Assembly: GCA_021234155.1 (NCBI GenBank)
Contig: JAJEKV010000030.1
Span: 3,756,761 to 3,820,760, forward strand
DNA: 64,000 nucleotides
Direction of reading: 5' to 3'
Source: Isoetes taiwanensis
Taxonomy: Eukaryota; Streptophyta; Lycopodiopsida; Isoetales; Isoetaceae
In this document: positions 9,681 to 34,751 of the stretch, one piece after another
Layout: every line of letters begins with the position of its first letter
How positions within the stretch are numbered: the first letter of the stretch is position 1
Position numbers and translations under genes: made by a program
The notes under the pieces: model-generated
What the model was told of the DNA's origin: nothing
The model's database searches: none
What the model saw: only the letters and a program-made list of their open reading frames with translations

Positions 9681-9697
9681 TTCAGATTATCCAGCTT

Positions 9698-10009: not shown

Positions 10010-11274
10010 AAAAAGACGGCGGTGTTGTTCGCGTTGCTGCAATTCCGATTTGGTGGAGCATTCCTTGGAAGGTGGTGTTGTTTTGAAACCAAGCCAGCGG
10101 GAACCCGATATCACTACACTGTAGCAATTGAAGAAAGCACTGTAGCTATAAATCATCACCACCTTTGTTCTATCCTTTCTTTAATTTCTTTCTCGCAGGA
10201 TAATGATCTAAAGAGGACTGTATATGTCCCATGGCAAATATCAGGGTAGATAAACCATAGATGCACCCTACATCTAGTAGCTTCTTCCATAGATGATCAT
10301 CAGTGTGTAGACAACTTCGACATGATGCACTGAAGATTCAACAACAGACTTTCGCAGAGATAATATGTACTTCATTTTCCTACCACCAGGAGGTGTTCCT
10401 ACCCACTAGTTTCTTGGCCTGCTCAACAATTGTCTGTCTCTTTTCTCCATGTGCAATTAAAGTCTCTATTTCCAGCTCAAGATGCAAACATGGGACAAGG
10501 AGAAGCACTGAATAACAGTAACATATAAGCTTGTCTTGACAGAATGAATGGCATTATTTGCTTTTGAAAGGCAGTTATTCAATGTACGTTTCTGCGTTAT
10601 TGTATATGTAGCAACATGGAATACATCTGATAGAAGCCCCTAAAGCATTTTAAACCGAACAAGCACAACAGAACATATTTAATAAAGAAAAAAGGAACAC
10701 ATGCATGTAAATAGCAGGGCGGTTTCTGCTTTTATTTACCCAGGGTGGTTTTGCTTGCCTGGAATTAGATTGATTTCTGCAATGTCTGACTGCTAAACTG
10801 GGATGAGCAACAACACTGTCATATGTCAGCATCATAAAACTAAACATAAATATATCATACAACCATTATCTCAGACTTACATAAATATCCAATGACAGAA
10901 GCATTCTGATATAAAGCATTCAAATGACAAATAATTGAAGAACTTAAACTTGGTTGCACATCAGTGACAAAAGTAGTGACAGAAGCATTCTGCTATAATG
11001 CATTTAAATGGCAAACAATTGATTGACCTGTTTGCACATAAAACCTCAATATAAATTGTGTTCCGATAAAAAATCTTCTGCTGCCTCATCATCTATGTAG
11101 CAACATGATTTGTACTTGGTTGTTTGCAAAATTGGAGAATGGCATGCAGCCATGAATGATGCCAATTGTTCTGCATATATGGGCAAGCAACTACGGAGAT
11201 TATTTGTTAGTCAATGACATTAAGAAAATGGAACATGAATTTCCTATTAAGTTAAAAGAAAGTTTTGTTACCCA
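10010..11274. other. Noncoding DNA downstream of gene B
   Basis: AT-rich sequence with no supported ORF, probably including the 3' untranslated region of gene B at its right end. It contains the tandem duplication listed at 10893-11041. Confidence 0.5.
10893..11041. repeat. 84-bp-period tandem duplication
   Basis: A segment starting 'tgacagaagcattctg.tata' occurs at about 10893 and again at about 10977 with a few substitutions; each copy ends near 'ttgcacat'. A related phrase (gcttctgcaacagtgcattta) occurs in inverse at the left edge of the window (25-50). Confidence 0.75.
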
Positions 11275-14255
11275 CTAGTCCTCTGGTTCCACCAAGTCTG
11301 CAGTTGTCACCTCATCTTCTTCATCTTCAATATTCTTCATGGCACCAGAAATGTGAAAGGGTCTTGGCCTGTTACAGCCCTGCAATTCCATGACAATCTG
11401 ACATAGCTTTTTATCCTTCTCCATTCCATAGTAATTAGCACCCCAAATAGCAGCTGCCTCCATCATAGAGCCCATACCAGCAAATAGTTCCAATACAAAT
11501 CCACTTGGGACACAAAACGAGTGCAATAAAAATTGCATGAAAACAATACTCTTTTGAAGATTGTATCTACATCCTCCAGAACCATCTGATATCAGCTTCT
11601 CTGATTGTATACATTCATGCTTTATAATGTTTGACATGTGATTTAGCTTTCCTTCAACAAAGGCCATAGGGTGAACTAAATTACCCTGATAACCAATTCT
11701 GCCATACAACGTCACACACAAAGTGCTCGTGTCAATAAGACCTAACATATCACTTCCATAAGAGAAAGGGACATCACCAATCAGCGTGTATGTTCTTCTC
11801 CTTTCCATGTTCCGTTTCTTTGCAATAACTTCAACACTTTTAAATTGTTCCACTGTGCAGATACAAACAAGATAGCCCTTATCATCTAAGCAGAGGTTAC
11901 CAATAGAAAAACAATCATCTATAAGCTGACTGTCACATCTGTTCCAATCAGGGATATGTGGATGTCCAATAGTAGGATATTGATTGGTGGGAAGATCAAT
12001 CAGCAAAAGATCAACACCCCAATCTCTGGTCTCACCATTTCTACTATATCTTTTCGATGCAATCTTTATGGACTTACCAAAATCACGAATGACCTTAAAT
12101 GGTGTATCGGGGTTCTTGCATGTCAAAGTTGCAGAAACATTTCTAACATCATCTGTTATTAGCCGTAAAGCCACATTTTTGTAAATTGGACCAATTTCCA
12201 TGTCAAGAGCCATGTGGCTAGGTGCCTGGCTGCTTACTTCCTGTGTCTCTCGCAAGTTCCCTCCTGTATACATGGCAGGTGTTTGCACATGGTTTGATTC
12301 ATCAGACAATTGAATGTGTCTTCTTTTCCGTTTCACTTTTCTTTTATCCACATCTCTTGCATCATCACTATAACCTGTTTGCATAGAAGCAGCACTAGGA
12401 CTCTTTTCGTTCTTAGAATCTGTATTGAATCTAGCAGCCCATACATGCTTTTCTTCTTCAGGCATACATCCTTTTTTAAAATCGAGCCACCAAGGGCAAT
12501 TCTCTAGCTCCCATTTGGTCATGGGTGGTTCACGATCCAACTGGCCCGGTCCAGAATACATGTAGGATTCACTACCAGTTACTGTCCATGACTTTGAGAC
12601 TGCTGGAAATTTTAAAATATATTTCTTTGCAAGAGCATACTTGAAGTACCTGATATACATTTTAGTTAGTCGAAAATAGAAGTAACTGAAAAACATAAAA
12701 TATCAGCGCAAAAATAACAGGAAAATGGATTACCTATATGTGACACGCATAGAGACCTTGTTGATGTCGAATGCTTCCTCAGCTGAGGCTGTGTAGGACC
12801 GTTTTTTTTCAATCACATGGAAAAGAATAGAGCAATGTTGCAACTAAAATTCTCTAAACCAAGAGTCCAAATCGTCATCATTGTGGCTAATAGCGATATC
12901 ACTTGCCAAACATACAGACTCCATTTGCTGAGTAGCTTTCTTCAACATGTGCTCCATCCATGTCTCCTTTTTAACCCACTCACGGAATTGTTTATCATTG
13001 TTTGGTATCCCATATGTGTCTATCATCGCTGTGCCAGATGCCATAATATTTAGCCACTTATTCCTTTGCTGGTTACTCACTGTGGATTTAGATAAGGCGA
13101 ATAACTTCTCTAATGTTAGTGCCATTTTCTTATTATCCAAATCTCTATTTGTAACATTCTTCAGCCAATCGGATTCTAGCATAGGATTTACAATTGCCAA
13201 ATATTTTTGAAATTTGTTTTGCCACTTTCGTCTTACTTCCCTTTCAGCTTTAGCAACTCTGTCCTCTTTAAGCAGAGGCTCTTCCATCAAGTTTATAGCC
13301 TCCTCAATTTCGGCTTCTATTGTGGACTGTTATAAGAACAAATCATATTGGCATTAAAGCATATTCTTATTTGCTTGGTACGCATTCAACATGTATATAA
13401 AAAGTTCAATATTATGTGCAATTATAAATTCAACTAACTTTGATATCTGGTACATAATTTTTGCGAGCAAATATTTCGTAAGAGGAAACCATGGCTCTTC
13501 GCCAAGAACCTGTTTCTCCCGCTCTATGCTCAATCTGAGTTCGTCCACAGATAAATGTGAAGTATATGTTGTAAGATCAGAAGTAGTTAATCGGTGGACA
13601 CCATACAAAATATCTTTCAGTTTGATCCGCACCACACCTGTCTCATTTAATCTGGAATGCAAAACAAACATTGTAGAAGTTATAAACCTCTTCTAAAGTG
13701 GCAGGACAAAAATCAAACTGACACTTACTGATTGATACGCTGCATAGCTGCAATAAGTTGTGTCTCATGTTGGTGATCTACTTCTACAAAAGTGGCATGC
13801 ACAGAGAAATGCATAGATCTAACGTCTTGATGCCTCTCCCTTATCTCTTGCATCCAAGCATCCGTGCGATGATTGCCGTCCCAACACAAGAACATTCTGC
13901 CACTAAGTTCTTGCCAATCCGGATGGCTGACTAATTCATCTTCAAACTTATCATTCTCTTCTACCCACAGAGGGTTCCACGTAGACTTGATATTGTCAGT
14001 TACTGGTATGCAATTGCCTCCTGTGCCTGATAAAGATAATATGAAACTTCCCTTCTCTTGCACATACCCATCATTTCTCAAAGTATCCCTCATTGCTTTA
14101 GAGCCTCTGGACACAAGACGAACTGCTTCATTAATCAAAATTCTGCATAGAGGAATAGGTGGTGGAGGGCTCAGTTTGACTACTCTGATCTCTTGCAAAA
14201 TTTCAGAAATCTGTTGAACTGTGAACTTTCTAGAAAATTCATCTGTCTCAGTATC
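11275..14255 (-). CDS. Gene B: ParB-like domain fused to a beta-class DNA-methyltransferase-like domain
   Basis: Five exons join in frame: about 14255-13729 (donor GTAAGT), 13651-13435, 13326-12916 (donor GTATGT), 12843-12734 and 12649-11275, coding about 879 residues; the first exon(s) and start codon are not found. Exon 1 holds 'CWDGNHRTDAW' (13880-13866), the DGxHR signature of the ParB/sulfiredoxin fold. Exon 3 is helical and basic. The last exon has a nuclear-signal-like 'KRKVKRKRRH', then 'LLLIDLPTN' (about 11995) in the place of the catalytic [DNS]PP[YFW] box, and 170 residues later 'VLELFAGMGS' with 'YGMEKD' (about 11484-11425), the SAM-binding motif. Motif IV before motif I is the beta-class order of N6A/N4C methylases. 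DLPT lacks the aromatic residue, so activity is doubtful. ParB-methylase fusions are known from phages and plasmids; a spliced plant copy is unusual. Confidence 0.72.
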
Positions 14256-14284
14256 CTCGGTTTCCTTTCACTACCACCCCAAAA

Positions 14285-14990
14285 CTGGGTCCACATGTTG
14301 TTTTTCAGTGTCTTTTTTGCAAAAAAACAACACCAAAAAACTACGTGTTGTTTTTTGTCCGGATTTGCTAGAAATGACGTGTAGTTTTTAGCAAAATTTT
14401 TATACATGTAGTTTTTGTTGCCAAAAGTCTACACATAGAGTTTTGTCAAAATTATCTACACGTAGAAATTAGCATGTATTTCCTACATGTTGTTTTTTAA
14501 TAATAGCTATAGTTTTCAAAGGTTGTTTTCCTAAAAAGTAGACGTGTTTTCCTAAAAAGTAGATATGTAGACTTAAAAGGTCTACATGTTTTTAACTGTT
14601 CTTTTGCAAAAAATCAACATGTTGTTTTTAATAATAGCTGTAGTTTTCAAGTGTTGCTTTCCTATAAAGTAGACGTATGGTTTTTAATAAAACTTAAAAG
14701 GTCTACAGGTTGTTTTTAACTGTTCGTTTTTAAAAAAAAACCAACACCAAAAAACTATGTGGAGAATTTTGTCCAACTTTGCTAGAAACTACACGTAGTT
14801 TTCTGATTTTTTTTTTTTTTTAGTGTGTTGTTTTCAAGTGTTGGTTTCCCCAAAAAATGATGCATGGGTTTTTTTTTTTTAAGATGTGGTTTTCCAAAAA
14901 AATAGCTGTTGTTTTCAAGTATTATTTTATATATAATCCAGTATGTAGTTATAAAAACAAATACTTTCAAGTGGCGTTTTTTTAAATAAG
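14285..14990. repeat. Low-complexity GTTGTTTTT/CTACACG tract
   Basis: About 700 bp of degenerate short units such as 'ctacatgttgtttttaa', 'agttttcaagtgttg' and 'aaaagtagacgtg', on the upstream side of gene B's first found exon. It is the reverse-complement counterpart of the tract at 23877-24600. A shared edge phrase (tgggtccaca next to ccacc.caa) is present at both. No ORF is supported. Confidence 0.8.
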
Positions 14991-15603
14991 AGATATAATT
15001 GTTGTTATTTTCTGTTTCTATCTAGAAAAACCCTTTTGGGAATCGAACCCAAATAAAATCCAATATGCAGGAAATAATAATTCCACATAAAATGCTTGCT
15101 TGGAATTGCTTGAAATAAAAAAATAAAGCAAAGCATACAGCCTTCCAGATTTTTTTTGTTTTCATTGTTGTAGTTTTGGATTTTTTATTATTGAAATAGA
15201 TGAAACCAAGGGTGGATCTGCAAGCGAAATAAAGGGAGGACAAATTGGACAGCAGTAAGCCTCTGCAACCAATTTAGGTAAGAAAAAGCAGAACAATTAT
15301 GGTAAAAACATAGTACCTGCCAGAACTTGTATGCAAGAGCCAAAAAAGGGAGAGCTTGAAATGGCAGCAGGAGCTATGCGACTTGCACCACGATAACCTT
15401 GTTAGAAATGGTCTGTTCTGAAATACAAAGATCTGGCAAAAATTTCCTCCGTCAAAGAGCCACTCCACTGCTGAAATTAGCGTATTTGCAAGAAAGCATT
15501 TGTGCACTAAAAAACATCATAATCTGAAGAAAAACAAAAGAAAAGCTTGCAACAGAAACAAGGACTTTGAGCCCAAAAACAACAAAAGCAAACGTAGTGT
15601 TAC

Positions 15604-15906
15604 CGGAGATGCCATTAAATTGGTATGAAAGAAACCAGAAGCATCAGCTGTGATTTCCCCTTCAGACCAGAAAATTGCATTGTAAATATCTATGAATGCT
15701 CTGAGGCTCTGCAACCTGTTGCTGAATTATACAGAGTTTTTTTTTTCTTACTTGTGGGGTCTTATAAATCCAAGCAACAGAACTACCCATGTGCTTACCA
15801 CTACCACAAACCCTAGAGGCCCATGAAACAGGCTTTGTCCTGTAGTTTTCGAGTTGGCAGTAATGGGTAGCACTACACCCACCGTGGCGCATACAATTGC
15901 CAATAC
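15604..15906 (-). CDS. Two exons of a possible cytochrome b561-like membrane protein
   Basis: Exon 15906-15752 has a good acceptor (CCGAACAG) and donor (AA|GTAAGA). It translates to two hydrophobic segments joined by 'TANSKTTGQSLFHGPLG' and ending 'LLLGFIRPHK'. Exon 15715-15604 (acceptor CAACAG, donor GTAACA) continues in frame with 'LQSLRAFIDIYNAIFW'. The H-x2-(I/L)G...RPxK-x3-R...YN spacing recalls the third/fourth helices of cytochrome b561 domains; that resemblance is weak and was judged by eye. The reading may continue into 15466-15330, where a TAA interrupts it. No start codon is fixed; 'MAALNQVWQNYTL' at about 16058-16020 is a candidate N-terminus but meets TAA. Confidence 0.35.
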
Positions 15907-16399
15907 CTGTTCGGATCACAAATGCAGATTATCAGACGTTCTAGAAATAGAGATAGATAAATCAGAGAATGGAAGTCAAAGCTTGCCTGCAGCAGCCTGT
16001 GGAAGTGGAACCACTTCTTAGAGAGTGTAGTTTTGCCAAACTTGGTTCAATGCGGCCATCCTTGAAAATGCAGTTTTGCCTAACTTGTCGGAACGTTTCA
16101 AGGATTCGTTGCAGGTAAGAAAAAGCAGAACGAAACTTGGCGGGGAAGAGGACGCCAAATGCAGACCATGTTCTGATTTCACATCCGCTGCGTTTGCCCG
16201 ATGCTACCATTCCCATGAGCACAAAAAAGCGGGGAGGGGGTTTGAAAACCTAAGATCGGTCTGCAAAGCGGCGAAGGCGGGAAGGAAAACGTGGAAACAA
16301 GTGGCCAATCGGCTGCAAAGACCGAGATCAAAATCTCGGCCGTCCATTTCAGTTCATCTCAGCCGTTGGATAAGAGGAAGTAGCTATATTGGACTCTAG

Positions 16400-18780
16400 G
16401 TGACTACAGCCCGTAAAATGCCAACACTAGACTATTAATTAAATACCCATTAGACACCCTAGCGCAGTGATTTTAGCTTGTTAAATACCTAGGTGCTGCA
16501 AACTATTCCTTAAGAGAAAACTGGACTGGAATGTTCCATCTTGCAATTGCATATATAACCCATATGAGAGGTATGGTAATGTAGGCCTTAAACTATAAAA
16601 TTTGAAGCTTAAGACCTTTAGATATAGCAAACCATTTGAATACCGTAGAATTTGATTTAAAAATGAATTCAAATGTTTGAATTAAATTTCATGGTTGAAA
16701 CGTTCCGACAAAAAATAGGGTGATATGATTTTTTCTCTGGTAACATCAAACGGAAAGGCGGCATTTGTCCCAGTTGGGTGTGCACCTAAATTCAACCCCT
16801 GCGGATATACCGATATCATGCGTGACAAACTATAATTTCATTTTCACGTGTGTGACAAATCATAATTTTTTGTTTTGCCACGTGACAAAACTTAATGTTT
16901 GTAACTCGTGACGTGTGTGCCAATAAGCTGCCAGGATGTGGCGATGACATGTCAAAAATGGCATGATGATCTGACAAATGTTATTTCTGTAATTTTCACG
17001 AGATGAGTGGGAAAAATGGAAATTTGCAAAAGTTAACATGGAATATGATGATGCGGCATTCCAAGTGGTGACATGTCATGCCAAGTAAGCAAGGCCAACC
17101 AAAAATGTACAACCGTGGACTTTCATGGGGTGGTGTAGCAATGTTTGGATGACAGCACAAGATATGGATGATTGTGGACATGTTGATTAAGCCATTTTGC
17201 TAGAAATATGACAACTTTTAATGTCTCGTAAAAGAATTGATATGGAAATTTAGGGGGCACTAAAAAAACCTACTTATCTCTCTAAAAAAAATCTTTTTTC
17301 CAAAAAAATAGCCTAGTCATTTTCTACTATCTAAAGCGCATATTATGCTTAGTCATCATGTGGCATGCCACAACATCCAAAGAAAAGCCATCTCACCACA
17401 GAGAAATGTCGTTTTCTTAAAAAGTTGCAAAATTGTCTAAGCAAAATGTTCATTTTTACACCCCTGCCACCTCGACACTAATCTTTGTCACCTCAACATA
17501 CTCATGCCATGTCATCCCATAGAATTTTTGCAAATAGTCACCTTCTCAAAAAGAAAGAAGTTTGTTTGCTCTAATCATGTGACCTCGTCATTTCTAGAGA
17601 GGGGACATTAGCGTACGACCTCACGGAGGTACGCAACTGGGATATTGTTTGAATGTTATGAAGCACTACAAGATGATGAACTACTTAAAGATGCAAAATC
17701 CGAGACTTGAACCTGAGTATGAGTGAAGATAGCATACGATGAGGAGCATATATTGTTGTTATATTTTTGTGCATTAGCTTCCCTTCCGACCTCCCCTTCA
17801 CTGGAAAGGGGCTATGATGAATGTTCTATCGAGACACTGCAACTCTCGCAAACGACCATTGGATTGTCAATTCCCATGGATATTCCGAGGATCCGACTAT
17901 CACTGGTCGCCCTGATATTCCATGACAAGATATACTGAGCTCGTCCACCGTTGAAAACTTGCCTATCCATTTTGGCCAAAAGTAAAAAAAATATGTCATC
18001 ATATGACAAATTCCTACAGGGTTAGCATTAGACAAACACAAAAAAATTGTCATTGCTCCTTAACATGTTATTAGCTCTTTATATTTGAAGGATTTACGTT
18101 TTGGAGGTCGAGTTTTGGTCATTTGTGCTTGGGACATGGTCGAGAACTTGCAGTTAAAAACATCGAAGCAATGAGACCTGACGGAATGGAATTTGGATTT
18201 GTCCTCCACCCGATGTAGCAATTCGAATTGAAAAGCCGCTTTTTGTAGTAGCAAGATATTGTTTGGGATCATTCTAGCTGACCAATAGATCCAAACTCCA
18301 TTTTTTTCAGTTGCCATGGCTCTTTATACATGCTTAGAAATGGTACACCAAGTTATCCATGAAAATGACCACGTTTCGGCCTCCGAAACGTAAACCTTAT
18401 GAAAACCTAGTAACTCACAGGATTTACATTTTGGAGGTTGAGACGTGGTCATTTGCATGGATGACTTGGTGCACCATCTCTCACGTGTTCATGCCTCTTT
18501 CATTGCAAAAAATGACCATGTAATTTGGTCCCTAGGGTAATTTCATCATTCTGAACAATGTGGCAAAGTCGAATCTCCATTCCTGAGCCTTTGTACTGCC
18601 CAAACGACAAAACACTTAGGTTTCTACATGATCGCCCGCAGGATGCTTCGCGGTCTTGGATATTCTTGAACCTACTTGAAGCTTGATCCTTGAAAGGAGG
18701 ATTCAATAGATGGATAGGAAAATCGAGCTCTGCGAGGGAAGGCATTAGCATAGGGCCTCCCGGAGGATCACTGCCAGAAA
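16400..18780. other. Intergenic AT-rich DNA
   Basis: No supported gene. It contains degenerate phrases such as 'gtgacaaa.cataattt' near 16820-16910 and two related phrases with 'cctc.cggagg' (17610 and 18745). The foldback at 18340-18477 is listed separately. Confidence 0.5.
18340..18477. repeat. Foldback (inverted repeat, about 57-bp arms)
   Basis: Left arm 18340-18396 (atggtacaccaagttatcca...) pairs with right arm 18420-18477 (...tggatgacttggtgcaccat) around a loop of about 23 bp, with a few mismatches. A third, partial copy of the inner phrase 'ggatttacgttttggagg' lies at 18088-18140. The structure is MITE-like, but no clear target duplication is seen. Confidence 0.75.
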
Positions 18781-18875
18781 TGGCTATCTTGGCAACCTTT
18801 CTAGGGTTCGTCTCTTGGGAACTTGCCTCTCCCCTCGGGTGAGGCAGCCGCGCAAAGTCCTGGCTTTATTTGACT

Positions 18876-19758
18876 TGGCATGTTTGAGCCACCTTGGCAT
18901 GTTTGAGCCACCTTGGCATGCTGGAGCCACCTTGGAGGTTTGAGCCACCTTGGCATGCTGGAGCCTAGGTGGCATGTTGGAGCCCACATGGCATGTTTGA
19001 GCCACTTTGGCATGTTTGAGCCACCTTGGCATGTTGGAGCCTAGGTGACATGTTGGAGCCCACGTGGCATGTTTGAGCCACCTTGGCATGTTTGAGCCTA
19101 GGTGGCATGTTGGAGCCTAGGTGGTATGTTGGATCCCACGTGCATGTTTGAGCCACCTTGGAATGTTGGAGCCTAGGTGGCATGTAGGAGCCCGCGTATT
19201 ATTTTTAAGCCACCTTAGCATGTTGGAGCTCGCGTGGCATACACCTTGGCACGTTTGAGCCTAGGTGGCATGTTGGAGCCTAGGTGGCATGTTTGAGCCA
19301 CCTTGGCATAGGTGGCATGTTGGAGCCCGCATGGCATGTTTGAGCCACCTTGGCATGTTTGAGCCTTGGTGGCGTGTTGGTGCCTAGGCGGCATGCTTGA
19401 GCCAAATTTTAGCGGGGTTGGAGCCTAGGTGGCATGTTGGAGCCCACATGGCATGTTTGAGCCACCTTGACATGTTGGAGTCTAGGTGGCATGAAGCCCA
19501 TGTGGCATGTTTGAGCCACCTTGGCATGTTTGAGCCTAGGTGGCATGTTGGAGCCTAGGTGGCATGTTGGAGCCTAGGTGCCATGTTGGAGCATATAGAT
19601 GGCATATAGGAGCCCGCATGGCATATTTGAGCCACCTTGGCATGTTTGAGCCTAGGTGGCATGTTGGTGCCTAGGTGGCATGCTTGAGCCACCTTGGCAT
19701 GTTGGCACCTAATTGGCATGTTGGAGCCCATGTGGCATGTTTGAGCCATGTTGGATCT
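18876..19758. repeat. 19-bp minisatellite array
   Basis: Roughly 45 tandem copies of a 19-bp unit in three interleaved forms: ttggcatgtttgagccacc, a form with gagcctaggtggcatgttg, and a form with gagcccacgtggcatgttt. The types alternate irregularly, and a few units are short or disrupted. Because 19 is not a multiple of three, every frame gives repeating peptides, so the open frames across the array are not evidence of coding. Confidence 0.95.
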
Positions 19759-19849
19759 AACCGTTGAAGTTATTTTTCACGAATGTAAAACAATACGATA
19801 CATTCCCAAAGTTGAGCACACAAACAATATTCCAGGTGGCGGTGCTTTG

Positions 19850-20647
19850 TGATATGGGGCATGCTAAGGGGAGTGGTGCAGAAGAAAAGAATTAAGGCAA
19901 TGGGGAGTTAAAAACCAATGGTTATGAGATATCAAGAGAAAAAGGGCAAGATATTCAACGACCATTAAAATAAGGAAAAATATCTTATTTAAAAGGGGCA
20001 AATATCGAAATAGGTCTTGAGCAACTATATTTTACTGTAAAAAAAGGCATGGATCGAGATGTGATGGAAATAGCAAACGCGACTACCTTTTCGCCAACAA
20101 AAAGGCCCGACTTGGGTTATAATAGAGGAGAACGGCCAGCCTTATAGAGACGGCAGCAACAAACTTCGATCTTCACTTCCAGCTCCAGCAGCGGCGACCT
20201 GTAAATCTTCAACTCGGCTCTAGTAAAACCGGTCCCTGATCGCTGCTGCCAAATCCGACCTGCAACTCCTTGATTTGGCCGAAGATCTTGTAGGCGGAGC
20301 TTCTGGGTCTGCTCTGTTTGCAGGCTTTCCTGATAAGCCTGAGATTGAATCGAATTCTATTCTTTGGTGATGGTGTTTGAGCCCATCCAAGCCCATAACT
20401 GTTGTAAGATCGGATTGATCATAAGCTGAAGTGGATAATAGGCTGTGATCAATCCCTTTCATTCTTTTCCCTTGGAAATTGCCTTAGTTCTTGTTCTGGA
20501 TCCGGTTGGGTGGAAACTGGATGCCCAATCCTTTGGTTGTGGAAACCAAGTTATTTGTTCTTATCAACGGATTGTCATCTACTTTACTTTGTCTATACAA
20601 CTGTTGTTCTTAATAGTTGCGCCTTTGAGTCCCCTTAAAGCGTATCA
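19850..20647 (+). repeat. 5' LTR
   Basis: 798 bp, starting TGATATGGGGCATGC and ending AAAGCGTATCA. It is nearly identical to the right copy apart from a few substitutions and short indels (for example extra sequence near 19875-19895), so insertion looks fairly recent. Confidence 0.95.
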
Positions 20648-20649
20648 AG

Positions 20650-20661
20650 TGGTATCAGAGC
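20650..20661 (+). promoter_or_regulatory. tRNA-iMet primer-binding site
   Basis: TGGTATCAGAGC, the plant initiator-methionine tRNA complement used by many LTR elements, lies two bases after the 5' LTR. Confidence 0.92.
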
Positions 20662-20708
20662 TTATCGATCCTCAGATCTGATCAATGGCCCAACCTCAGA
20701 TCTGATCA

Positions 20709-22046
20709 ATGGCCCAACGCTTCAATGTTACTGAAGCACAATATCAGCAAGCCTTGTCTAATGCTGGTTACATTGCATCTCAGTCAGTGTTGTTTCCGTA
20801 CGGGTACGGTACCTTTCAAGTACTTAGCATACCGTACCAGAGGTACGGTACGTACGGAATGAAAAATGAAATGTTTTTGCTTCAAATTTTTGGAGTTTTC
20901 AACACAAATGCGGTAAAGTATTTTAAAGGTGCGGTGCGTTATTTTTATAGGTAATCGTAAGTTTTTACAAGTATTTTATAGATGCAGTGCATTTTTTATA
21001 GGCACGGTAACAACACTTTTAACGTCTTTTTTTTTGCACGCTAAAAAACTTCGGTAGTGCGTTACGGTATGATCACGTAAAATACTTACCCATTGCCGTG
21101 CAATGCGGTGAAATGCGTAACAACACCGATCTCGCTTAGCATTGCCTCGCCTAGCGGGCGGCAAAGAGTATGGCAGGGCAAGTGGAATTGCTTTCCTATT
21201 CTATACCGCTTCCTTCCGGATATTTATCTCAACCTTCGCGAACCTCCTTTGCCTAATAGTCCTCCTCCAAGAACTCCTCCACCGCCACCTAAAGCCGAAA
21301 AATGGTTAGAAAAAGCGATATGCAGATTTCAAAGGGGAAAGACAAAGCCCGCCAAGGTTGTCCAGTTTCATCGGCCATTGGGAAAAGTTCTTTGAACGAG
21401 TGCGAGCAACGAGATGTGGAAAGACTGCAAGCCATGGACACTTACTTGACAGGTCGAGCTCAAGCATGGTGGCAAGGCAGACGAGAATGTGATCCCAGGA
21501 TTAATAATTGGGAAAGTTTCAAAACGGCTTTTGAAGCACATTATTTACCCTCTAACTATCACAGTGAGTTACACAGGGAATGGGATCGTCTGAAACAGGG
21601 GGAAACTGAGAGTATTCAGTCCTACACTTCCAAATTCACTCATTTAGCGGCACTAATAAGGAATCTGGATGGGAAAGAGCTTCTGAGAAAATATGTCAGT
21701 GGATGTAGGTATGATATCTATGTGGAAATGGAAATATTTCTCCCTAAGGATTTAAATGAAGCCATAAGACTAGCATCTGCAGTGGAGCGGAAACTAGATC
21801 CAAAGTCTAGGAAGTTTGATATTTGGGATGAGGAAACCTCAGATCAAGAAGACAAAAAGAGTAGTAAAGAGAAAAACGGAAGTTTAAGGATTCTTCCAAG
21901 AACTTCAAGAGGAAGAGAAATAATGGCAATGGTAACGGTTCCAAAAGGAAGCGAGAGGAGGGAAGTCAAATTAGACTGCGGAAGGAAACTAAGGAACCAA
22001 CGGGAGGATGCTATAGATGCGGAGGAAATCATTTCTTAAGGGATTG
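20709..22046 (+). pseudogene. gag gene of the LTR element, interrupted by a MITE
   Basis: The start ATGGCCCAACGC at 20709 opens 'MAQRFNVTEAQYQQALSNAG'. A 340-bp MITE interrupts at 20787. After it comes a proline-rich linker (about 21240-21300), then a retrotransposon gag domain at 21302-21830 with 'LTGRAQAWWQGRR', 'WESFKTAFEAHYLP' and 'ESIQSYTSKFTHLA'. The zinc knuckle 'CYRCGGNHFLRDC' (about 22011-22049) is in the +1 frame relative to this ORF, which stops at 22037-22039, so a frameshift separates them. The knuckle and gag identify a gypsy-type capsid gene, now inactive. Confidence 0.85.
20787..21126. mobile_element. 340-bp MITE with GTGTTGTT termini
   Basis: It starts gtgttgtttccgtacg and ends gcgtaacaacac, an inverted repeat of about 10-12 bp. 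The interior is rich in 'cggtacg', 'gcggtg' and 'acggta' phrases that fold back. It breaks the gag reading frame. No convincing target duplication was found by eye, so the exact ends are tentative. Confidence 0.6.
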
Positions 22047-22116
22047 CCCGTTTGGAGAAGGGGGGATCACAAAAGTTGAACCACCTAAATCTCAAAGGGG
22101 TGCGCAAGTGCATGCT

Positions 22117-22437
22117 GGGTGAAAGCTGCTAGGGTGTACCATCTAAAGTTCTTTTTAGGGAGTGCGAAACTACCCAGAAAAGTACCCAACCCTGGGTACT
22201 GGGAACTTGCATTAATGTCTCAATAAACAATAAGTTTGAGAGTTTATTCATCCATTTTAATCTCTAATAGTATTTTCATCCTCTAATACTATAGATTGAT
22301 ATGTTATTGACCTTCAACTCAAAATTTTTGGATTGATTTTAATGGAAAGAAAAAGTAGAAAGTACTAGTTTTAAAAGTACCCAGTGTAGGTACTTTTGAG
22401 GGTTCCAAAAGTGGTACACCGTAGCATGCTTTCACCC
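22117..22437. mobile_element. 321-bp MITE with GGGTGAAAGC termini and TSD tgct
   Basis: The left end (gggtgaaagctgctagggtg) and right end (gtagcatgctttcaccc) form an imperfect inverted repeat of about 30 bp that includes ggtgtacca. Direct repeats tgct lie at 22113-22116 and 22438-22441. The inner part is itself inverted ('gtacccaaccctgggtact', 'aaagtacccagtgtaggtac'). It interrupts the region after the gag knuckle. Confidence 0.8.
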
Positions 22438-22789
22438 TGCTATTGAAGGTCCTAAGCCCGTGGTTGTACAAATGCATGCTATTGAAGGTCCCAAGCCCGT
22501 GGAGGATATACCTGAGACCTCTAAAGCTGCTGATGAGCAGAAGAAAGATGAGGAACGAGCAAAGGCTATTGCCAAAGAACGGAGGTGGCTCCAAATTGGA
22601 ACTATGGGGTAAAAATCGTAAAATTTACATTTCTTAGGATAAGATTTATAAGATTTGATTTGATTTGATTTGATTTGTAAAATTTGATTTTTATGTGGAA
22701 TAAAAATTAAATTATTATGAAAGCATGGTGCATTAGATGTAATTTTTGAAAGGTGGTAATTGTTGTTATAGCACAATAGGCCTAACAAA

Positions 22790-22985
22790 AATTACATCGG
22801 TATCGCGGAGATACAATTAAGTAGTACCGCGGTACGAAAAATACTAACGTATCATGGAGATACAATAGTTTAGTATCGTGGAGATACTCCCAAATAGTAC
22901 CGCGGAGGTACGAACGATAGCAATGTGCCGCGGAGGTACAAGGATATATCGTACTGTGGAAGTATGCGCATATCCGTAACTATTT
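22790..22985. repeat. Cluster of quasi-palindromes of the type GTACCGCGGAGGTAC
   Basis: At least seven short units of the form gta(t/c)c-g(c)gg-a(g)gtac recur every 20-35 bp (tatcgcggagata, gtaccgcggtac, tatcgtggagata, gtaccgcggaggtac, gtgccgcggaggtac and variants) just inside the 3' LTR. Their role is unknown. Confidence 0.75.
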
Positions 22986-23096
22986 CTTGAATTTGCAGAA
23001 CCTTCAAACGTATGGGGCAATCGCCTTGAGAAGGGATGGGTCCCTCTGGAGCGTCTCTGGAAGATCGCGGACGATCTTCTTTAAGAAGGGATGGAT

Positions 23097-23871
23097 TGAT
23101 ATGGGGCATGCTAGGGGGAGTGGTCCAGAAGGGACTTAAAAACCAATGGTTATGAGATATCAAGAGAAAAAGGGCAAGATATTCAACGACCATTAAAATA
23201 AGGGAAAATATCTTATCTTAAAGGGGCAAATATCGAAATAGGTCTTGAGCAACTATATTTTACTGTAAAAAAATGGATTGAGATGTGATGGAAATAGCAA
23301 ACGTGACTATCTTTTCGCTAACAAAAAGGCCCGACTTGGGTTATAATAGAGGAGAACGGCCAGCCTTATAGAGACGGCAGCAACAAACTTCGATCTTCAC
23401 TTCCGGCTCTAGCAGCGGCGACCTGTAAATCTTCAACTCGGCTCTAGTAAAACCGGTCCCTGATCGCTGCTGCCAAATCCGACCTGCAACTCCTTGATTT
23501 GGCCGAAGATCTTGTAGGCGGAGCTTCTGGGTCTGCTCTGTTTGCAAGCTTTCCTGATAAGCTTGAGATTGAATCGAATTCTATTCTTTGGTGATGGTGT
23601 TTGAGCCCATCCAAGCCCATAACTGTTGTAAGATCGGATTGATCATAAGCTGAAGTGGATAATAGGCTGTGATCAATCCCTTTCATTCTTTTCCCTTGGA
23701 AATTGCCTTAGTTCTTGTTCTAGATCCGGTTGGGTGGAAACTGGATGCCCAATCCTTTGGTTGTGGAAACCAAGTTATTTGTTCTTATCAACGGATTGTC
23801 ATCTTCTTTACTTTGTCTATACAACTGTTGTTCTTAATAGTTGCGTCCTTGAGTCCCCTTAAAGCGTATCA
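23097..23871 (+). repeat. 3' LTR
   Basis: 775 bp with the same termini as the left LTR (TGATATGGGG...GTATCA), followed at once by the target duplication ctttg. Confidence 0.95.
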
Positions 23872-23876
23872 CTTTG

Positions 23877-24600
23877 CTTAAGAAATAGCCTCAAAAAAAC
23901 CATACTTCCTTAAGAAATAGCTATGTAAAAACTACACTACTTCAGAAAACTACACTTCTGTAAAAAACAGCCACTTAAAGACTACACCTACTTAAAAACC
24001 ACACCTCAAAAAACTATACTTACTTTAAAAAACAACTACTTAAAAACTATACCTAGTTCTATAAACCACACCTAAAAAATCATACTTCCTTAAAAATAGC
24101 TTCCTAAAAACTACACCTAGTTATAAACTACACCACTTCAAAAAACCATACTGCATTAAAAAACAACCACTTAAAAACTACACCCACTTATAAACCACAC
24201 TTCAAAAAACCTTACTTCTTTAAAAAACAGCTATTTAAAAACTACCCCCACTTATAAACGACACCTCAAAAAACAACACCTCGATTGAAAAAAATCATAC
24301 CACTTCAGAAAACCATACTTCCTTAAAAAACAACCACTTAAAAACTATACCTCCTTATAAACCACACTTAAAAAAACTATACTTCCATAAAAAATGACTA
24401 CTTAAAACTACACCTAGTTATAAACTACACCTCAAAAAACAACACCTTCTTAAAACCAACATCCCCTCAAAAAAATAAGCAACACTTCTTTTAAAAAAAC
24501 ACCACCTCAAAAAAAGACCATATCTTCAAAAAAAAAAAAACTATAGCTCCATAAAAAAAACTACACCGCCTCCTTAATAAACCATACCTCCACATAACCA
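23877..24600. repeat. Low-complexity AAAACTACACC tract
   Basis: About 720 bp of degenerate phrases such as 'cttaaaaactacacctcaaaaaacc' and 'ataaaccacacct', built almost only from A, C and T on this strand. It is the mirror (opposite strand) of the tract at 14285-14990. The tail of gene C's reading frame runs into it. Confidence 0.85.
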
Positions 24601-25680
24601 CATGTAGATTTTTTGGAACAACGACATGTGGTCTTTTTGTTACTGTTGTTTTTAGGTGTGGACCCAGAATTGAGGTGGTTGTGTTTTTCTTCTTTTTTCC
24701 TTTTGCAAGACTGGCATTCTTTGATGGACTACCTCCCAAAACCTCCTTCTGATCATCAGCAATTGCATCCTCAAGTGTACATGGCTCTATGGAGTCTGGC
24801 TCAATGCATTCAATATTTTGTTCCATGTCTTCCTGTGCCATAGCTTTTTCTTGCAATTCAGTATGAAAAAACTTAGACTTCCTAGACCTTCTAGGGGGAG
24901 TCTGAAGAAGACTGTAGACAAACTCCTCTTTATGTTGGCGAGTTACAACCACGCCCTCCTGTGCAAGCAAATCAACCCACCAATTCACCAAACGGTGCCA
25001 CACAAGAAATATGCATCTAGAAGATTAAATGGTGATAGTGTTTTCAGATACCTTGAACTCTTGAGCCAAGCAAAATAGACACCAACATGCTCTTGTGCTT
25101 CATACAACTCATATGCCCATTTTACTAAACGGCGCCAAACAAAGAAACTGCATTTGATAATAAGAAAAATTCAAAGATATGTTGTAATGCACACTACTAG
25201 CAAAACAGACATTATGTTTCTGCAAAATTGACTGGAAGAAGAGTTAGGGACATACCAAAGCCATAAACGGCGCCGTTCAGCAAAATTATATTCAAGGAGG
25301 AGCCCAATTGAATGAGATTTCAGCTGGAACAAAGTAGAAATTAGGCTTCTACTAATTCTAAAATGGAATCAAGAAAGAGCTAAAGGCATACCAAATCCAT
25401 AAACGGCGCCGTTCAACCAAAATTGTATTCAAAGAGGAGCCCATCTGAGCAAGATTTTGGCTGCGGCAAATTAGAGATCATGCTTCTACTATTCCTGAAA
25501 TTGAATAAGAAAGGAGCTAGAGACATACCAAATCCATATGACAAACCATAAACGGCGCCGTTCACTCTGAATCGGATTCAAAAAGGAGCCCAACTGAACT
25601 AAAATTTAGCTCAAAATGCACAGAAGTTTAGGGTTCGAGGAAGACTTTAGGGTTCGATTATGAAGAAGCTTACTATAATA
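24491..25680 (-). CDS. Gene C: protein built from repeated exon cassettes
   Basis: On the minus strand, exon-like units share a start of the type 'F(V/L)W.RLV.W'. One unit (about 25138-25051, donor GTATCT) reads 'FFVWRRLVKWAYELYEAQEH'. The next (about 25003 onward) reads 'VWHRLVNWWVDLLAQEGVVV' and continues through an acidic, then Lys-rich region ('KGKKKKN') into the simple tract, where the stop at 24491 is. Upstream, three tandem units of about 120 bp (25650-25262) each contain the palindrome-like 'aacggcgccgtt' and end at a GTATG(C/T) donor, coding 'ERRRLW(I/L)W'. This looks like exon duplication. Start codon and function are unknown, and I do not recognise the family. Confidence 0.45.
25262..25650. 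repeat. Three tandem ~120-bp units with core aacggcgccgtt
   Basis: Each unit runs 'cataccaaa.ccataaacggcgccgttca', then '.ttcaa..aggagccca.ctga', then a divergent tail with 'aaatt.g...c.tgcttctacta'. Cores lie at about 25265, 25398 and 25550. The conserved edge coincides with a minus-strand splice donor, so whole exon-intron units are repeated. Confidence 0.8.
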
Positions 25681-26227
25681 CATTTCTAATTTCTAATTTC
25701 ATTTGTGTTTGTGTCTAATTGTTAATTTTTTTAAACGTTAATTTTCTAATTGTTCTTTACGTTTTTTTTTTTAAACGTAAAGAACGTTTTGTAGTCATTT
25801 TAACGGATTAGAAAGGGTTTAATTTAAAGAAAGATTACCGTTAAAGTCTACTTAATTTGTTCCGTAAATTCGTTTTATGGGATTCGTCCAAAAATGATTA
25901 CCGTTTTAAATTTTTATAATCGAGAGGATCTACAGGTAGGTATGCCAACTTTAAAATTAAAACACTATTATAAATGATTATTTAAACGTTCACCAAATAA
26001 AACGTCATTTGTAATTATAGCATGGAATACCTAGGATTAACTTAAAAAGACCTCAATGTTTCATTTTATGAACTGTTATCTTGCTAATGGCGACGTTCTT
26101 GACTATTAGAGGATTTCTGAAGGAGCAGTACATAAATATTCCTTTCTGAAATGGCATTGCACTTGTCAAGCAAAGCTATCTTTGCCAAATCTTTGGATTT
26201 ACTAATAGTTCCGTCCTTGTTGTTCAA
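25681..26227. other. AT-rich spacer upstream of the MULE gene
   Basis: No ORF supported. A hairpin-like 'ttacgttttttttttt...aaacgtaaagaacgtttt' lies at 25757-25790. The promoter of the MULE gene should be here, but I cannot place it. Confidence 0.4.
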
Positions 26228-29200
26228 ATGGATGGAGAGGATGAGGATGTACAAAGGACACAGAATTTGTTGCCAAATGTTGATGAGGCTGGAGAGCCAA
26301 CATTTGAAGTGGAAGAGAAAAATGGACATTCAATAACGGTGTATGGCACAACATTGTTAGGAAGTTCCCCTCAATATCCAATACCTGTTGAGTCCTCTAC
26401 ATCTCCAAATGTTTTAAGGAGGAATAACAATTCAACGTTCTACAACATTATCAAAAATCCCAACAAGAACAAGATCCAGAAGATACTACAATATGTTGGA
26501 GAGGCTCGAAAGGTAAATTGTCTCCCCCCATTTTACAATGATACTATAGTATTTGAATTGCCATCGCAAGCGGAAGCTGGTAGTAGTATGGAGGGAATGC
26601 AGCAAAACATGGATCCCCATGTTTGGACCCATCCCAACAATAGCACATACACCCATTTTTCTGGAACAGTCCGTTTGGTGCATTGTGCTGGGCATTTACA
26701 GTGTCAAAATAAGGTGTGTGATCATTTATTAGCCAAGCGAGTTTCTAATGAGTTACAATGGCGTGGAACACTCTATGAAAGACCAAGGCTTGGAGAAATA
26801 AGTGATGGTTTAGGTTCTTTGATGTGTGATTACTGCAAAGAGCAACCAACATGTATATCCAGTTGTGAAGCTATTTTATATTACATACTTCCAGATAACA
26901 TTCATGAGACAAGGTTAGCTGTTCATCATGGTGTGCATAGACATCCGATAAGAATGGTTGAAAGTAGAGAAGAAATAGCTAAGTACAAGCAGTTGATAAG
27001 TATCTCAGCCAGAAAAGGATCAACTTCTAATGGCACAAGAAAATCTCAACATTTGCTTGCTATGGATGCTATTTGCAACAATTTGCTTGATAGTGAGTCT
27101 ATTGATGATGTTCAAATGCTTAATTCTGAACAATTGGATGAGCTTCTTAAGAGACTCGAGCCATTATGCAATCAAAGAAGGTAATCAAGCATCCTTTTAA
27201 ATGTTCTTCATTCATTGTTTACTAATGTTGTTTCTCACGTAGATTGCGAAAATGGTTGGATGATTGTCGTAAGAGGAATAAACAATGTATTGATGACCAA
27301 TCTAGTATTTTTCATTTGAAGAGACGTTTAAAATACGAGTATTTTCATGGTTCAAGATTCCCTTATCAAAACCATACAGAGAAGGATAAGTGCTTTGTGT
27401 TTAAGATGTCAACAGTAGGTCCAGGATTAGGTGTTAATTTGGTGAATAGAATGCGACCTGGAGGTGATCTTGATAAGTCTTGGGTCCACTTTGACCATGT
27501 TAAAAGGATTAGTGTTGGACAACCATTGCCTGCCATGTGTATGACCCAAGGTATGTGATGTTTTCAATTGTATCTGTTTAGACTATCTAACTAATGTCAT
27601 TCTATGATCCATCTGTTGTTTTCAGCCTACAGTCTCTTCTCACAATAGCTATATGTGATATGAAGACAGAAAATCTTGAATCTCAAAGACTCTTTTGGGA
27701 ATTGCTAAATGAGGTCATGATTTCCAAGAATTACCCTCCTGCCAACTTTCATGGATTTATGGCCGATGCGGCCCAGGCAAATTGGAATGCCATAAGGGAG
27801 GTCTTCTTCAATGGGAAACATTTGCCTGACAAAGAACGTTCTTGTGTCTTTCACTTTGAACAATGCATGCAAAGGCACACAAAGAAGTATATATACCAAA
27901 ACACAGAGAAGAGCACAAGGAATTATGTAGACAATGGCAAAGAAGCCGTACAAAAGAGGATGCAGATAAATGCTATTACAAAATTATGAGCTGGTGGGAG
28001 GGTAAAGCAGCTCCCAATGACATCAGAGCTCTCACAACCTGATTGTCATGGTGGCACCATCGTGCTAGCCGATGGGGTAATTTCCTTCATGCTAAATAAT
28101 AGAGGATTAGAAGCAGCTATACATGTTCCCAATACAAATTTATCTGAATCAAGACATGGCAGTTGGCTAGCTGCAAATGGTTACAAAAAAACCATGAGCT
28201 TGTGTATGATGCTTGCATTTTTTTATCTTACTGAGGCTGTTCTTCAAAGTACAAAATACAGATCACATTTAGACCACAATTATGTTGGAGCAGGACCTGG
28301 CATCAGCTCTTTAATACAAAGATTTGAACAAAGAATGGCCAGTTTGTCAAGCCTACAGAAGCTGTCAATATTATAAATTAGACCACCAGCAAGATGGGTT
28401 TGCTAATCCACGATAGTGGAGCAGGAGGCAATGAACAGACTGTCTATAAAAGAGCTAGAATGACAGAAACTATATATCTGACAGATGAGAATGGTTCACA
28501 TAGGCCAGACAAGCAAATGAGAAATACATCTAGAATTCCACATTCAGATCCTGTTGTTAAGAACCTATTCAAGAACACAACAGACATCCTTGTGCAAGAG
28601 AAGATCCTACATGACTCATTTTGGGCTCTAAGAAGGACAGAACCAGGTAGCAAAGTTAGATGCCAAGGACAAACTAAACCTGGAGCACGAAAATGTGACA
28701 AGCTTATAAACAAAGGTACTTCCTCTGCTGTAGCCCCTTGTTACTATAGTGTCCCAAAGTGATTCGGAGGTACTCAATCTCGCTTCTTTTGGTTTTGTTC
28801 TGATGATGTTAAACATACTTGGTTCCCTTCAAAATGTTATTGTCCCCTACTTTGTCGTCTTGTTATGTGGCCTTGTAGCAAAAGGGGTGAACTTAACACA
28901 ATCACGAAATCGAAACTTCTGATCTTTGGTTTTAACATTGAGGGCTTGGGTAGACATGTAGAAGAGGTTGTCCCAACAACTTTGGCTAGCAGCCAAAGGC
29001 ATAGAGATAGTGGTAAAGCTCAGCTAAGAAGATGTGGAATTGTGCATATGAGGAATAAACTAAATAGAGATAGTGAGATCCGTTTAAATTCAAGCTACCA
29101 GATGCAAGGCTATGTTGTGACTCAACAGGTTGTGCTAAATAAAAGCCATGTGGACTTCTTTATTGGAAAAGACAACAACAGCTATAAAGTCTCTATCAGA

Positions 29201-29313
29201 AGAGAGCCTAGTTGTACTTGTGAAGACTTCATGAACAGTGAAAGGAAACATGGGTACATTCCTTGCAAACACTTGTTCTACATCATGCATAAAGAGCTTG
29301 GTGTGGATCCTAC
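26228..29313 (+). pseudogene. MULE transposase gene, multi-exon, decayed (5' and main part)
   Basis: Exon 1 (26228-27180, donor GTAATC) has an N-terminal Cys/His region ('VRLVHCAGHLQCQNKVCDHL'). Exon 2 (27243-27550, donor GTATGT) joins in frame via 'CNQR-RLRKW'. The third part holds the MULE core: 'AICDMKTENLESQRLFWELL', 'ADAAQANWNAIREVF', 'ERSCVFHFEQCMQRH'. The frame then shifts near 27945 ('SWWEGKAAP') and again near 28010-28060; a later frame has 'NTNLSESRHGSWLAANG'. A Cys-rich stretch (28650-28840) and a SWIM zinc finger follow ('CTCEDF...IPCKHLFYI', 29213-29281). An LTR element interrupts at 29314. MULE transposases cut and paste DNA flanked by 9-11-bp duplications. This copy is dead because of several frameshifts. 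Confidence 0.88.
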
Positions 29314-30807
29314 TGTGACGTCCCCTACTCGTATACGATGCCCGCACCGTATACAACCAGGAGTTCATCCCCCATACCAGCTCCATACTGATATAGGGCC
29401 CTCCACAGATCACTGTGACCATCTGGAATCCACAGTGGGGAAGAATGAAGGGGTCATTTTACCCCGTCTCCCTCGGGGCCTACCTAGCTGCGGAAGCGTA
29501 AACATACACGTCAGTAACATAACATCATATATCCACCTCGAAGGGTGGTACATCAACATCTGCATAGACAAAGATCAGCACAATACAAAGGGGATCCTAC
29601 CCAAGGCTCAGACACAGGGATGGACTGACAAGCTTGGGTCTCCAGAGTTCGTTGCAGACGGAATCATGACAATGGAATTGGCTGGCATAAGAACATGGCA
29701 TTGGGTTGTCCACTCCATCCGCCCCTCCTGTACACACTTTGCAGAGTAGGTTGAAGAGTGTTGGGACCTGACTGTAGCCCGCCGGGTGCATAGCCAAAGG
29801 GGCTATTTCTGGGTTACATCTCCCCAGTCCCGATGGGGCAGGTAGGGATCACTCCCTCCAGAGATCTACATGCTGACCCAAGGTGACTAGAGGGCCACTG
29901 CCCTTATTCGACTTAACCCACTGGAAGGTGAACTCCACCCCACGGGTGTCGGAGCCCATGCCTTACCCACACTTTCGGTGGCAAGCCATTAGACCTAGTC
30001 ACTCGATCCCCAGGTAGGCCTTACACACCCGAGGGATCGGTCAAGGGTCGAAACACGAACCTCATTCTAAGCCGGTCGCCCCTTCACCCACAACCGTGGG
30101 GTTCTTGTGCACAGGCGAAATCTAGTAATGCACTAAGAGGGACTAGCTAGGAGCATCATCTAATTGAGCTTTAAGTCTCTACCCCCTTCCCAATACAATG
30201 AGTCCACGTAATACATCCGTCCATCATATCAACATAAGTAAATAGAACTAATCTAATTCATAGAGTTAGGTTCTTTAATTAGAGTCAATCTCGAGGATCG
30301 CTTGGCTACTAAGGGTGATTTAATAGGCTAAACCTACTTGGTTCGAAGGCTGGAATAAGGTTTAGGCTATTCAATCGACAAATACCTGATCCTTGGTTCA
30401 CTCCTCGATCCGGCGTCCCATGACTTTGTTACGCTTGAGATGCGGTTTTAAGGATGATCGACCAAATTTGAGGCGCCGCACGGCGGATCGTGGGAGTTGG
30501 AATTAACTCCTCAAAGCCTTGAATCGGAGCTCCGAAGGTCTCGTGGCGAAAAAGGGAATGTTAGGGTTTGGTGCCTTATGAAGGCTATCGCTAGGTTTAG
30601 GGTTTCCATGACCCTTGGTCTACCTTTAATGGGTTAAAGGTCTAAAAGTGCGACATTGCTAAGTGTGTGCACCATTGCAAGCTGCCCCCTAGGGCCCTTT
30701 GCTTGGGTACACGCCGTCGGCATACCGTCGATTGGGGCGGCGTGTGCGCGTGGCCGATCGCGATGACGATATGCCCCGGGACCGTATAATGTCTTCGGAA
30801 CGCCACA
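29314..30807 (-). repeat. Left LTR (3' LTR in element orientation)
   Basis: 1,494 bp, from TGTGACGTCC to CGCCACA. Its first 379 bp have no counterpart in the right LTR; from 29693 on the two copies match closely. The MULE frame runs into it as an artificial read-through up to 29747. Confidence 0.9.
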
Positions 30808-33800: not shown

Positions 33801-34751
33801 CGACTCAGATCCGATATTGTTTTTTTTTTCGACTCCATCGATGTCTCATACGCCGAGTCCTCTTGTTGCTATCGTGTTGCAGAAGAGTGTTGAGGATGTG
33901 GATTGCTTCACCCCTGCAAATTGCACGACATCTCTTCTTTTGATCCGTTATGCTATGGGAGGGAAGGAATAACAGGGAACTATACATGCAAAACATATAG
34001 CTTACATAACTACAATTACTACTAGCTATTAGGTCCCCTTGTGCCTCCCTCCGAGTTGCACACCTATTCCTTGGCAATGTCATACCGATTCCTCCTGTGC
34101 AATGGTGCCGGCGATCCATATCCTCCTATTTGTGCGTCAGCTCGTACTCACTGGGTAACTTGTTGATGTACTTGGGCCCCTCCGATGTTTGTCGGCTATG
34201 GCACAACACGCTTTGGATCACATTCTAACTAAAGGTGTGCTGGTCGTTGATGCTTCAACATTTTTGGTTCCGCTTTTTGATCCCGTTTCTCGGTGTAATT
34301 ATCCCCCCTTCATGATACTTCGAAGCTATTTGAAGGCGTCTCTTGAGGCCGTGGCGATTCCTTTGGTCGCTGTACTCCTCGAGTTGTTGTTCTCTTCTGC
34401 AGCTTTTTCTTTGAATCGTCCATCCTTGGGTTCACCAAGTTGCATGCAAGTCCACGCAAAGTCATCGGCTCGCCTCGCCTAGTTGCTTCTCCATCGAAGC
34501 TTCCAAACTTCCTTGTTTGATCCCCTCGATCACATGGCTTGGGCGTTGTCACGTTCCACTATGCCGCCTTCTTGTCTTGAGGTACCTTCCGGTGGCTTTG
34601 ATTGTGCTCGTCGGTTTGATCCTCCTGCTTGCCTCTAGGGAGCTTTCGTGGAAGAAGTCGGTTGCTAGCACTTCTCCAGCTTTCAGTTCCTGACCTTTGT
34701 CCCTCTATGCATGTCGGTCTCTCTGGCAAGTAAAGCATCATGGCTCTCCTC
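30808..34751. other. Non-coding interior of the LTR element
   Basis: AT-rich to about 33000, then more mixed. A diverged tandem duplication of about 285 bp lies at 30930-31149 and 31215-31434, best preserved in 'ggtactcttca.tccttgcaacacatt' through 'tttgtgttgcaagtcttcg'. The right third (33800-34750) has several minus-strand open stretches rich in R, K, S and T, but none matches a gag or pol motif I know. Confidence 0.6.

Follow-up and report, generated by a model that had tools for sequence, protein, structure and literature searches.

The methylase-like gene in this region of the Isoetes taiwanensis genome belongs to a family of Mutator-type DNA transposons, in which it is the second, accessory gene, and is not a stand-alone host gene. 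It lies within a multicopy element that carries its own transposase-like gene, bearing out the original prediction that the gene might be transposon-borne. We are nearly certain of the element and of its head-to-head pair of genes. The product of the accessory gene is about 900 residues long, and the promoter region shared by the two genes contains repeated copies of a short palindrome, to which the protein may bind. Below, the window is the whole stretch of 64,000 nucleotides that was analysed, and names beginning with L denote matching loci in the same genome.

Results

The gene lies within a multicopy Mutator-type element

We searched the 1.66-Gb genome (1,658,258,908 bases, 1110 contigs) for the two ends of the gene. 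The last exon gave at least 101 matches (90 of 792 candidates scored) and the first exon at least 150 (150 of 462 candidates scored), counts in which pieces of one copy may be counted separately. A minority of matches were approximately 70–97% identical to the window, and most were approximately 31–69% identical. Many first-exon matches at approximately 49–51% identity are frames of 169–191 residues with one internal TAG, possibly a subfamily that multiplied and then decayed.

Sixteen neighbourhoods of 10 kb (copies L086–L101) were aligned to the window. Three copies showed both ends, with the left tip placed at the same point in each, and were flanked by 9-bp repeats identical at 9/9, 9/9 and 8/9 positions (chance of at least 8/9 identity, approximately 2e-4 per pair). 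These elements measure 9708 bases, 9331 bases and, from its end coordinates, approximately 10.1 kb, a range of 9.3–10.1 kb. The tips, GAGTGTAAAATGTTTGCGTG (window 36159, read leftward) and ..CAAAGATTTTNCC, form an imperfect terminal inverted repeat. Mutator elements duplicate eight to eleven bases of target (PMC6446971), and a 9-bp duplication at the inverted ends was seen in 3/3 both-ended copies. We use the label Mutator-type because of these duplications, the transposase being without a MULE profile match. The window holds the following parts of the element:

10036..14268, minus strand: left element piece, the 3′ half of the ParB/methylase-like gene and its 3′ flank (alignment to L086–L101)
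24684..29313, unstranded: middle piece, the 5′ gene end, shared promoter region and transposase-like gene (alignment to L089 and L091)
35865..36159, unstranded: right end piece, with tip GAGTGTAAAATGTTTGCGTG on the minus strand (alignment to copies)
36160..36168, plus strand: right flank GGAATTGAC, the expected 9-bp target duplication, adjoining the right tip

The left terminus of the element and the partner of the target duplication were not found within the window, and an Rfam scan of the window gave no match.

Its long reading frames and orderly splice sites could at first sight suggest a domesticated single-copy gene in host service, domestication being one of two alternatives that the original prediction had offered. 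This reading is now extremely improbable, and is refuted for the window copy, which is one of many, is broken and forms part of a larger unit with target duplications on either side.

Gene structure and state of the window copy

The motifs on which the prediction was built, DGNHR (13880–13866), DLPT (11997–11986) and FAGMGS (11484–11467), are all present in one orientation on the minus strand, and the spacing from DLPT to FAGMGS in the window copy is 171 residues. As proposed, the sequence allows an open frame of 869 residues whose joints all have GT..AG, but the five-exon model fails. Its third "intron" (12902–12789) was rejected and the model ruled out, because copies L089 and L079 are coding through this stretch, which in the window contains an in-frame stop (12846–12844); the gene therefore has four exons. 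The gene start proposed at 14255/14268 was also wrong. The start codon is at 24841, beyond an insertion at 14269–24683: nine of the 16 fetched copies align up to window position 14268 exactly and then break off, and for the four copies used as queries the alignment picks up again at 24684. The revised gene comprises:

24684..24841, minus strand: opening coding segment of the ParB/methylase-like gene, which begins MAQEDMEQN... at start codon 24841–24839
13729..14268, minus strand: remainder of exon 1, which has WDGNHRT in its ParB-like candidate domain (DGNHR in 13/14 rows of the exon 1 alignment, YGNHR in 1/14)
13435..13651, minus strand: exon 2 (comparison with L079)
12734..13326, minus strand: exon 3, formerly drawn as exons 3 and 4, with the in-frame stop (L089, L079)
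11275..12649, minus strand: last exon, methylase-like domain with DLPT and FAGMGS (Pfam PF01555, family alignment)

The last intron (12733–12650) is supported by L079, in which both sides are fused at the same point. At intron 1 (13728–13652) and intron 2 (13434–13327), L079 shows a frame change and an excess of 24 codons.

The window copy is a pseudogene, with exon 1 split by a CACTA-type insertion and an in-frame stop further downstream. Stop-free last exons occur at other places in the genome. Two insertions foreign to the element are nested in the window copy:

14269..24683, unstranded: CACTA-type insertion in exon 1, imperfect inverted ends CACTACCACCCC / CACAACCACCTC, TTT on both sides
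29314..35864, unstranded: second insertion, TG..CA ends, CCTAC on both sides, 1.1-kb direct repeats

The CACTA-type insertion is 10,415 bases long. The second insertion cuts the transposase-like gene and is probably an LTR retrotransposon, given its TG..CA ends, the CCTAC on both sides and its direct repeats (29693–30807 and 34752–35864, 91% identity). Other repeats lie nearby. At 3676–10015, the left part of the element, we noted pieces of Copia-type polyprotein and, at about 9708–10015, a stretch resembling an LTR. The minus-strand open reading frames in 99–3434 match zf-Tnp_2 below threshold and include a coiled coil, and may represent a further DNA transposon.

A transposase-like gene is the constant head-to-head partner

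The second gene of the element lies on the opposite strand:

~26228..29313, plus strand: transposase-like gene, decayed, cut by the second insertion, head-to-head with the methylase-like gene (frame open from 26150, start codon uncertain)

In copy L098 this gene reads as an open frame of 592 residues. The transposase copies contain a SWIM-like finger below threshold (Pfam E 0.035), and no Pfam match to a MULE-type DDE domain was obtained in 12 transposase open reading frames or the two from the window. The arrangement is also found in distant subfamilies: L081 and L072, picked for their stop-free last exons, have a transposase-like frame upstream on the opposite strand, with 52% and 44% identity.

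Genome-wide, we found at least 85 transposase places (82 of 1184 candidates scored). An exon 1 place lies within 7 kb at 35 of the 85 listed, and all 35 pairs are head-to-head; approximately 0.1 pairs would be expected by chance at this distance. Within 20 kb, there are 41 pairs among the matches listed, 37 head-to-head and four otherwise. Conversely, 34 of the 150 listed exon 1 places have a transposase partner within 7 kb. The two halves of the methylase-like gene are also found together, with an exon 1 place within 7 kb upstream at 44 of 82 typed last-exon places (67 of 150 exon 1 places typed).

The last exon encodes a methylase-like domain

The predicted relationship of the last exon to DNA methylases is supported by Pfam, PHROG, profile comparison and PDB profile matches. 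Pfam N6_N4_Mtase (PF01555) matched residues 360–437 (27.2 bits, cut-off 26.7, E 4.4e-6), spanning only positions 145–220 of the 221 in the profile, which is the motif X to motif I region. PHROG and NCBIfam methylases matched weakly, and matches to phage and plasmid proteins were marginal, mostly in the motif X–I region only (best E 2e-4). A profile of eight family members compared to 31 methylases from plasmids, phages and viral contigs gave 96.6% probability (E 6e-10), while one reversed and five shuffled controls reached at most 0.5%. An hmmsearch of the family profile against the PDB returned chains 9c3u and 8urk (M.BceJIV) at E 2.5e-4. Only the motif X–I half aligned with significance, the DLPT half alone giving E 0.1–0.2. 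DLPT is assigned as the probable motif IV from its spacing and from the resemblance of VDLLLIDLPTN to VDLVLTDPPYG.

MAFFT alignments of the methylase domain that placed DPPY opposite LDDKGY were judged wrong. Relatives were trimmed at motif IV, which removes this misalignment by construction, so the domain model from the trimmed alignment (mean pLDDT 49, 81–94 in the region of motif I) and the Foldseek matches obtained with it (best E 3e-3, none at or below 0.001) are not independent evidence. No full-length relative was found among approximately 5.8 billion predicted proteins, where candidates share short words only, or in IMG/VR, both being collections that appear plant-poor; the two phage methylases examined lack a ParB domain.

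We regard the presence of a methylase-fold domain as highly probable. The domain resembles the β-class N6A/N4C methylases (PF01555; M.BceJIV, M1.HpyAVI) in its motif X–I region and in the placement of motif IV before motif I, but has DLPT instead of DPPY and sits inside a plant transposon protein.

The altered catalytic box predates the spread of the subfamilies

Fourteen of the 16 aligned last exons are readable at motif IV, two frameshifted rows having been left out there. They read DLPT in 12, DLPN in one and DFPT in one, and a (D/N/S)PP(Y/F/W) motif was found in 0/14. The first glycine of the motif I GxG is present in 14/14 readable rows and the second in 12/14. For pairs with dS below 1, dN/dS was 0.08, 0.13, 0.10 and 0.07 in exon 1 and 0.21, 0.26, 0.21 and 0.11 in the last exon (four pairs each), indicating that both halves were under purifying selection. 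Since the altered box is common to the subfamilies, it predates their spread and is not a product of decay in the window copy.

The original prediction had noted the altered box and suggested a protein that binds or guides. This idea is strengthened, because the alteration is common to diverged subfamilies under purifying selection. From its sequence, the methylase domain is likely to be catalytically altered. It would probably still bind S-adenosylmethionine, the motif I region being mostly kept, and base methylation has probably been lost or strongly changed, because D-P-P-Y has become D-L-P-T.

Alternatively, the protein could be an active enzyme that uses the unusual DLPT box for N6-adenine or N4-cytosine methylation of the element's own DNA, for example its CpG-rich iterons, and so shields it from host 5mC silencing. 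The largely kept SAM-binding region and the retained D and second P of the box are compatible with such activity, and the authors of work on Ectocarpus propose that an accessory protein binds and modifies its own transposon (PMC12477816). However, none of the 14 readable copies retains the first P or the aromatic residue of DPP[YFW], and a rotifer N4CMT became inactive after a change from SPPY to APPA (PMC8885841). We consider an active self-marking enzyme improbable.

A ParB-like domain in exon 1 is a lead

The original prediction also placed a ParB-like domain in exon 1. The DGNHR motif is there, but no statistical test confirmed the domain and the resemblance stays at the level of the motif. 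Exons 1 and 2 gave no match in Pfam or NCBIfam and, in PHROG, one of unknown function (E 0.18). The family profile found no ParB-like chain in the PDB, and of two phage and plasmid searches with exon 1, one gave no match and the other a match at E 2.

Compared with a set of 46 YbdM-type ParB sequences, the exon 1 profile scored 16.7, its own shuffles 10.8–14.8 (n = 5) and its reverse 13.0. The methylase half, although unrelated, yielded a profile that reached 16.8 with these ParB sequences; reversing it gave 19.9 and shuffling it as much as 16.9. One shuffled exon 1 profile scored 27.9 against methylases. With unrelated controls reaching the level of exon 1, this result carries no evidential weight. 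The best local match, with DGNHR and DGFHR in register, is as expected for a ParB relationship, though the score of 16.7 is statistically meaningless. An AlphaFold model of exon 1 alone was uninformative (pLDDT 42). A relationship to the ParB/Srx fold is thus a lead, as apt to prove right as wrong.

Palindromic iterons occupy the shared promoter

The region between the two genes contains tandem arrays, with a period of about 137, that bear the palindrome AACGGCGCCGTT:

25239..25538, unstranded: tandem array of period 137 in the shared promoter region (TRF)
25266..25277, unstranded: palindrome AACGGCGCCGTT, iteron 1
25402..25413, unstranded: palindrome AACGGCGCCGTT, iteron 2
25551..25562, unstranded: palindrome AACGGCGCCGTT, iteron 3

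The core of the palindrome, CGGCGCCG, has three CpG dinucleotides per site and occurs at least twice in the shared promoter of 6/7 subfamilies tested, which are approximately 48–62% identical to the window in exon 1 and not all independent. Within 1.6 kb upstream of exon 1, the window has three exact sites, L173 and L174 two each, L177 four, L178 three, L179 none and L180 six. The expected number is at most 0.007 per region, and for none of the six positive regions did any of 300 resampled sequences reach the observed count. The motif was first noticed in the subfamily of the window, and L173 and L174 had been fetched earlier; in the test set alone, L177–L180, three of four are positive. The exception, L179 (G000:C1100:24117167-24118766), has no exact CGGCGCCG in its upstream region. 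This region is AT-rich (GC 0.30) and has TAAATTTA and TTTATAAA repeated seven times each instead. Within the window's own subfamily, two of 11 copies are without an exact site and the other nine have one or more.

Around the core, the flanks differ between subfamilies: GTCGGCGCCGAC is common to L174 and L177, while AACGGCGCCGTT is found in the window and AAACGGCGCCGTTT in L178. The palindrome may be a site for a host transcription factor that drives both genes, with the methylase-like protein uninvolved, and a core kept while flanks differ would be expected from a host factor as well. Against this, the subfamily-specific extension of the palindrome to AACGGCGCCGTT, GTCGGCGCCGAC or AAACGGCGCCGTTT is more like a factor that diverges with its subfamily, a weak argument. 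We give the host factor a modest chance.

A transposition co-factor, which would bind element DNA and aid excision or integration, is a further alternative. Its orientation relative to the transposase-like gene is constant, and MULE accessory frames with such a role have been described, mudrB being apparently needed for integration in maize (PMC6446971). The iterons, though, lie in the promoter and not at the ends. Of the 19 exact sites in the 16 fetched copies, 17 are located no more than 1.6 kb upstream of exon 1, which gives 17 in the 16 kb inside these regions and two in the 144 kb outside. We view a co-factor role as unlikely.

Proposed role of the accessory protein

VANC proteins bind arrayed motifs in the non-coding parts of their elements and cause loss of methylation; the motifs of these VANDAL elements evolve by tandem repeats and differ between families (PMC5735166). 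Here too, an accessory gene is combined with a site array in a shared promoter and with diverging flanks, and by likeness to VANC we infer a sequence-specific DNA-binding factor, encoded by the element and acting on its own promoter. The chances that the protein is such a factor seem to us evenly balanced. The transposase or a host factor could be what binds the iterons instead. Binding of the protein to the iterons is, on its own, a putative step that may equally well hold or fail. The ParB-like part of exon 1, the methylase-fold domain or both would contact the repeated CGGCGCCG palindrome and, by occupying the palindromes or spreading from them, the protein would keep both element genes unsilenced or regulate them. 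An anti-silencing role, drawn by analogy, is conceivable, at somewhat less than even chances. A fuller version is a parS-like system, in which a fusion of a ParB-like domain and a retired methylase would load onto the CGGCGCCG iterons of the bidirectional promoter and block or reverse host CpG silencing, with site flanks and protein co-diverging between subfamilies. This version is speculative, and we think it rather unlikely to hold in full.

Discussion

The closest description is that of Sola1-1_Ec32 in Ectocarpus, whose accessory gene combines a ParB-like domain with an N4C/N6A methylase, and for which similar proteins are cited in transposons of green and red algae (PMC12477816). ParB/methylase accessory genes of transposons have thus already been reported in algae, and the kind is therefore known. 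The Isoetes protein shares with that of Sola1-1_Ec32 a methylase domain, a DNA transposon as carrier and a strand opposite to the transposase, a likeness by description and not by sequence; its ParB-like candidate domain may be a further parallel. It differs in its Mutator-type element, its land-plant host, the DLPT box and the promoter iterons. A prokaryotic fusion of a ParB domain to an adenine methylase, for which nicking activity is reported, is similar by domain description.

Among Mutator-type elements, maize MuDR likewise has two genes, mudrA and mudrB, but mudrB is of unknown function and is described with no mention of a methylase part (PMC6446971); the word methyltransferase is absent from the available text of this MULE survey. 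VANC, from the VANDAL elements (MULE) of Arabidopsis, is also the product of an accessory gene in the Mutator superfamily and is likewise associated with arrays of short motifs in non-coding parts. It is described with DUF1985 and DUF287 (PMC5735166), neither of which was found in Pfam scans of the exons studied here, where the parts are methylase-like and ParB-like. Binding and hypomethylation were demonstrated for VANC, whereas the Isoetes system is known from sequence.

At the level of titles and abstracts, with subscription literature mostly outside the search, we found no report of a Mutator-type or land-plant case, of the altered box or of the palindromes. The algal ParB/methylase proteins were presented as a possible class able to mark its own DNA, with no target named in the text available (PMC12477816). 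To this, the present family adds a possible target site within the promoter of the element itself. It also extends the kind to a land plant and to another transposon superfamily, and its active site has an alteration that selection has retained. With the Isoetes taiwanensis family, the choice between "mark" and "bind" becomes directly testable. If the protein does counter silencing, the problem that VANC solves would have been solved a second time, by apparently unrelated means.
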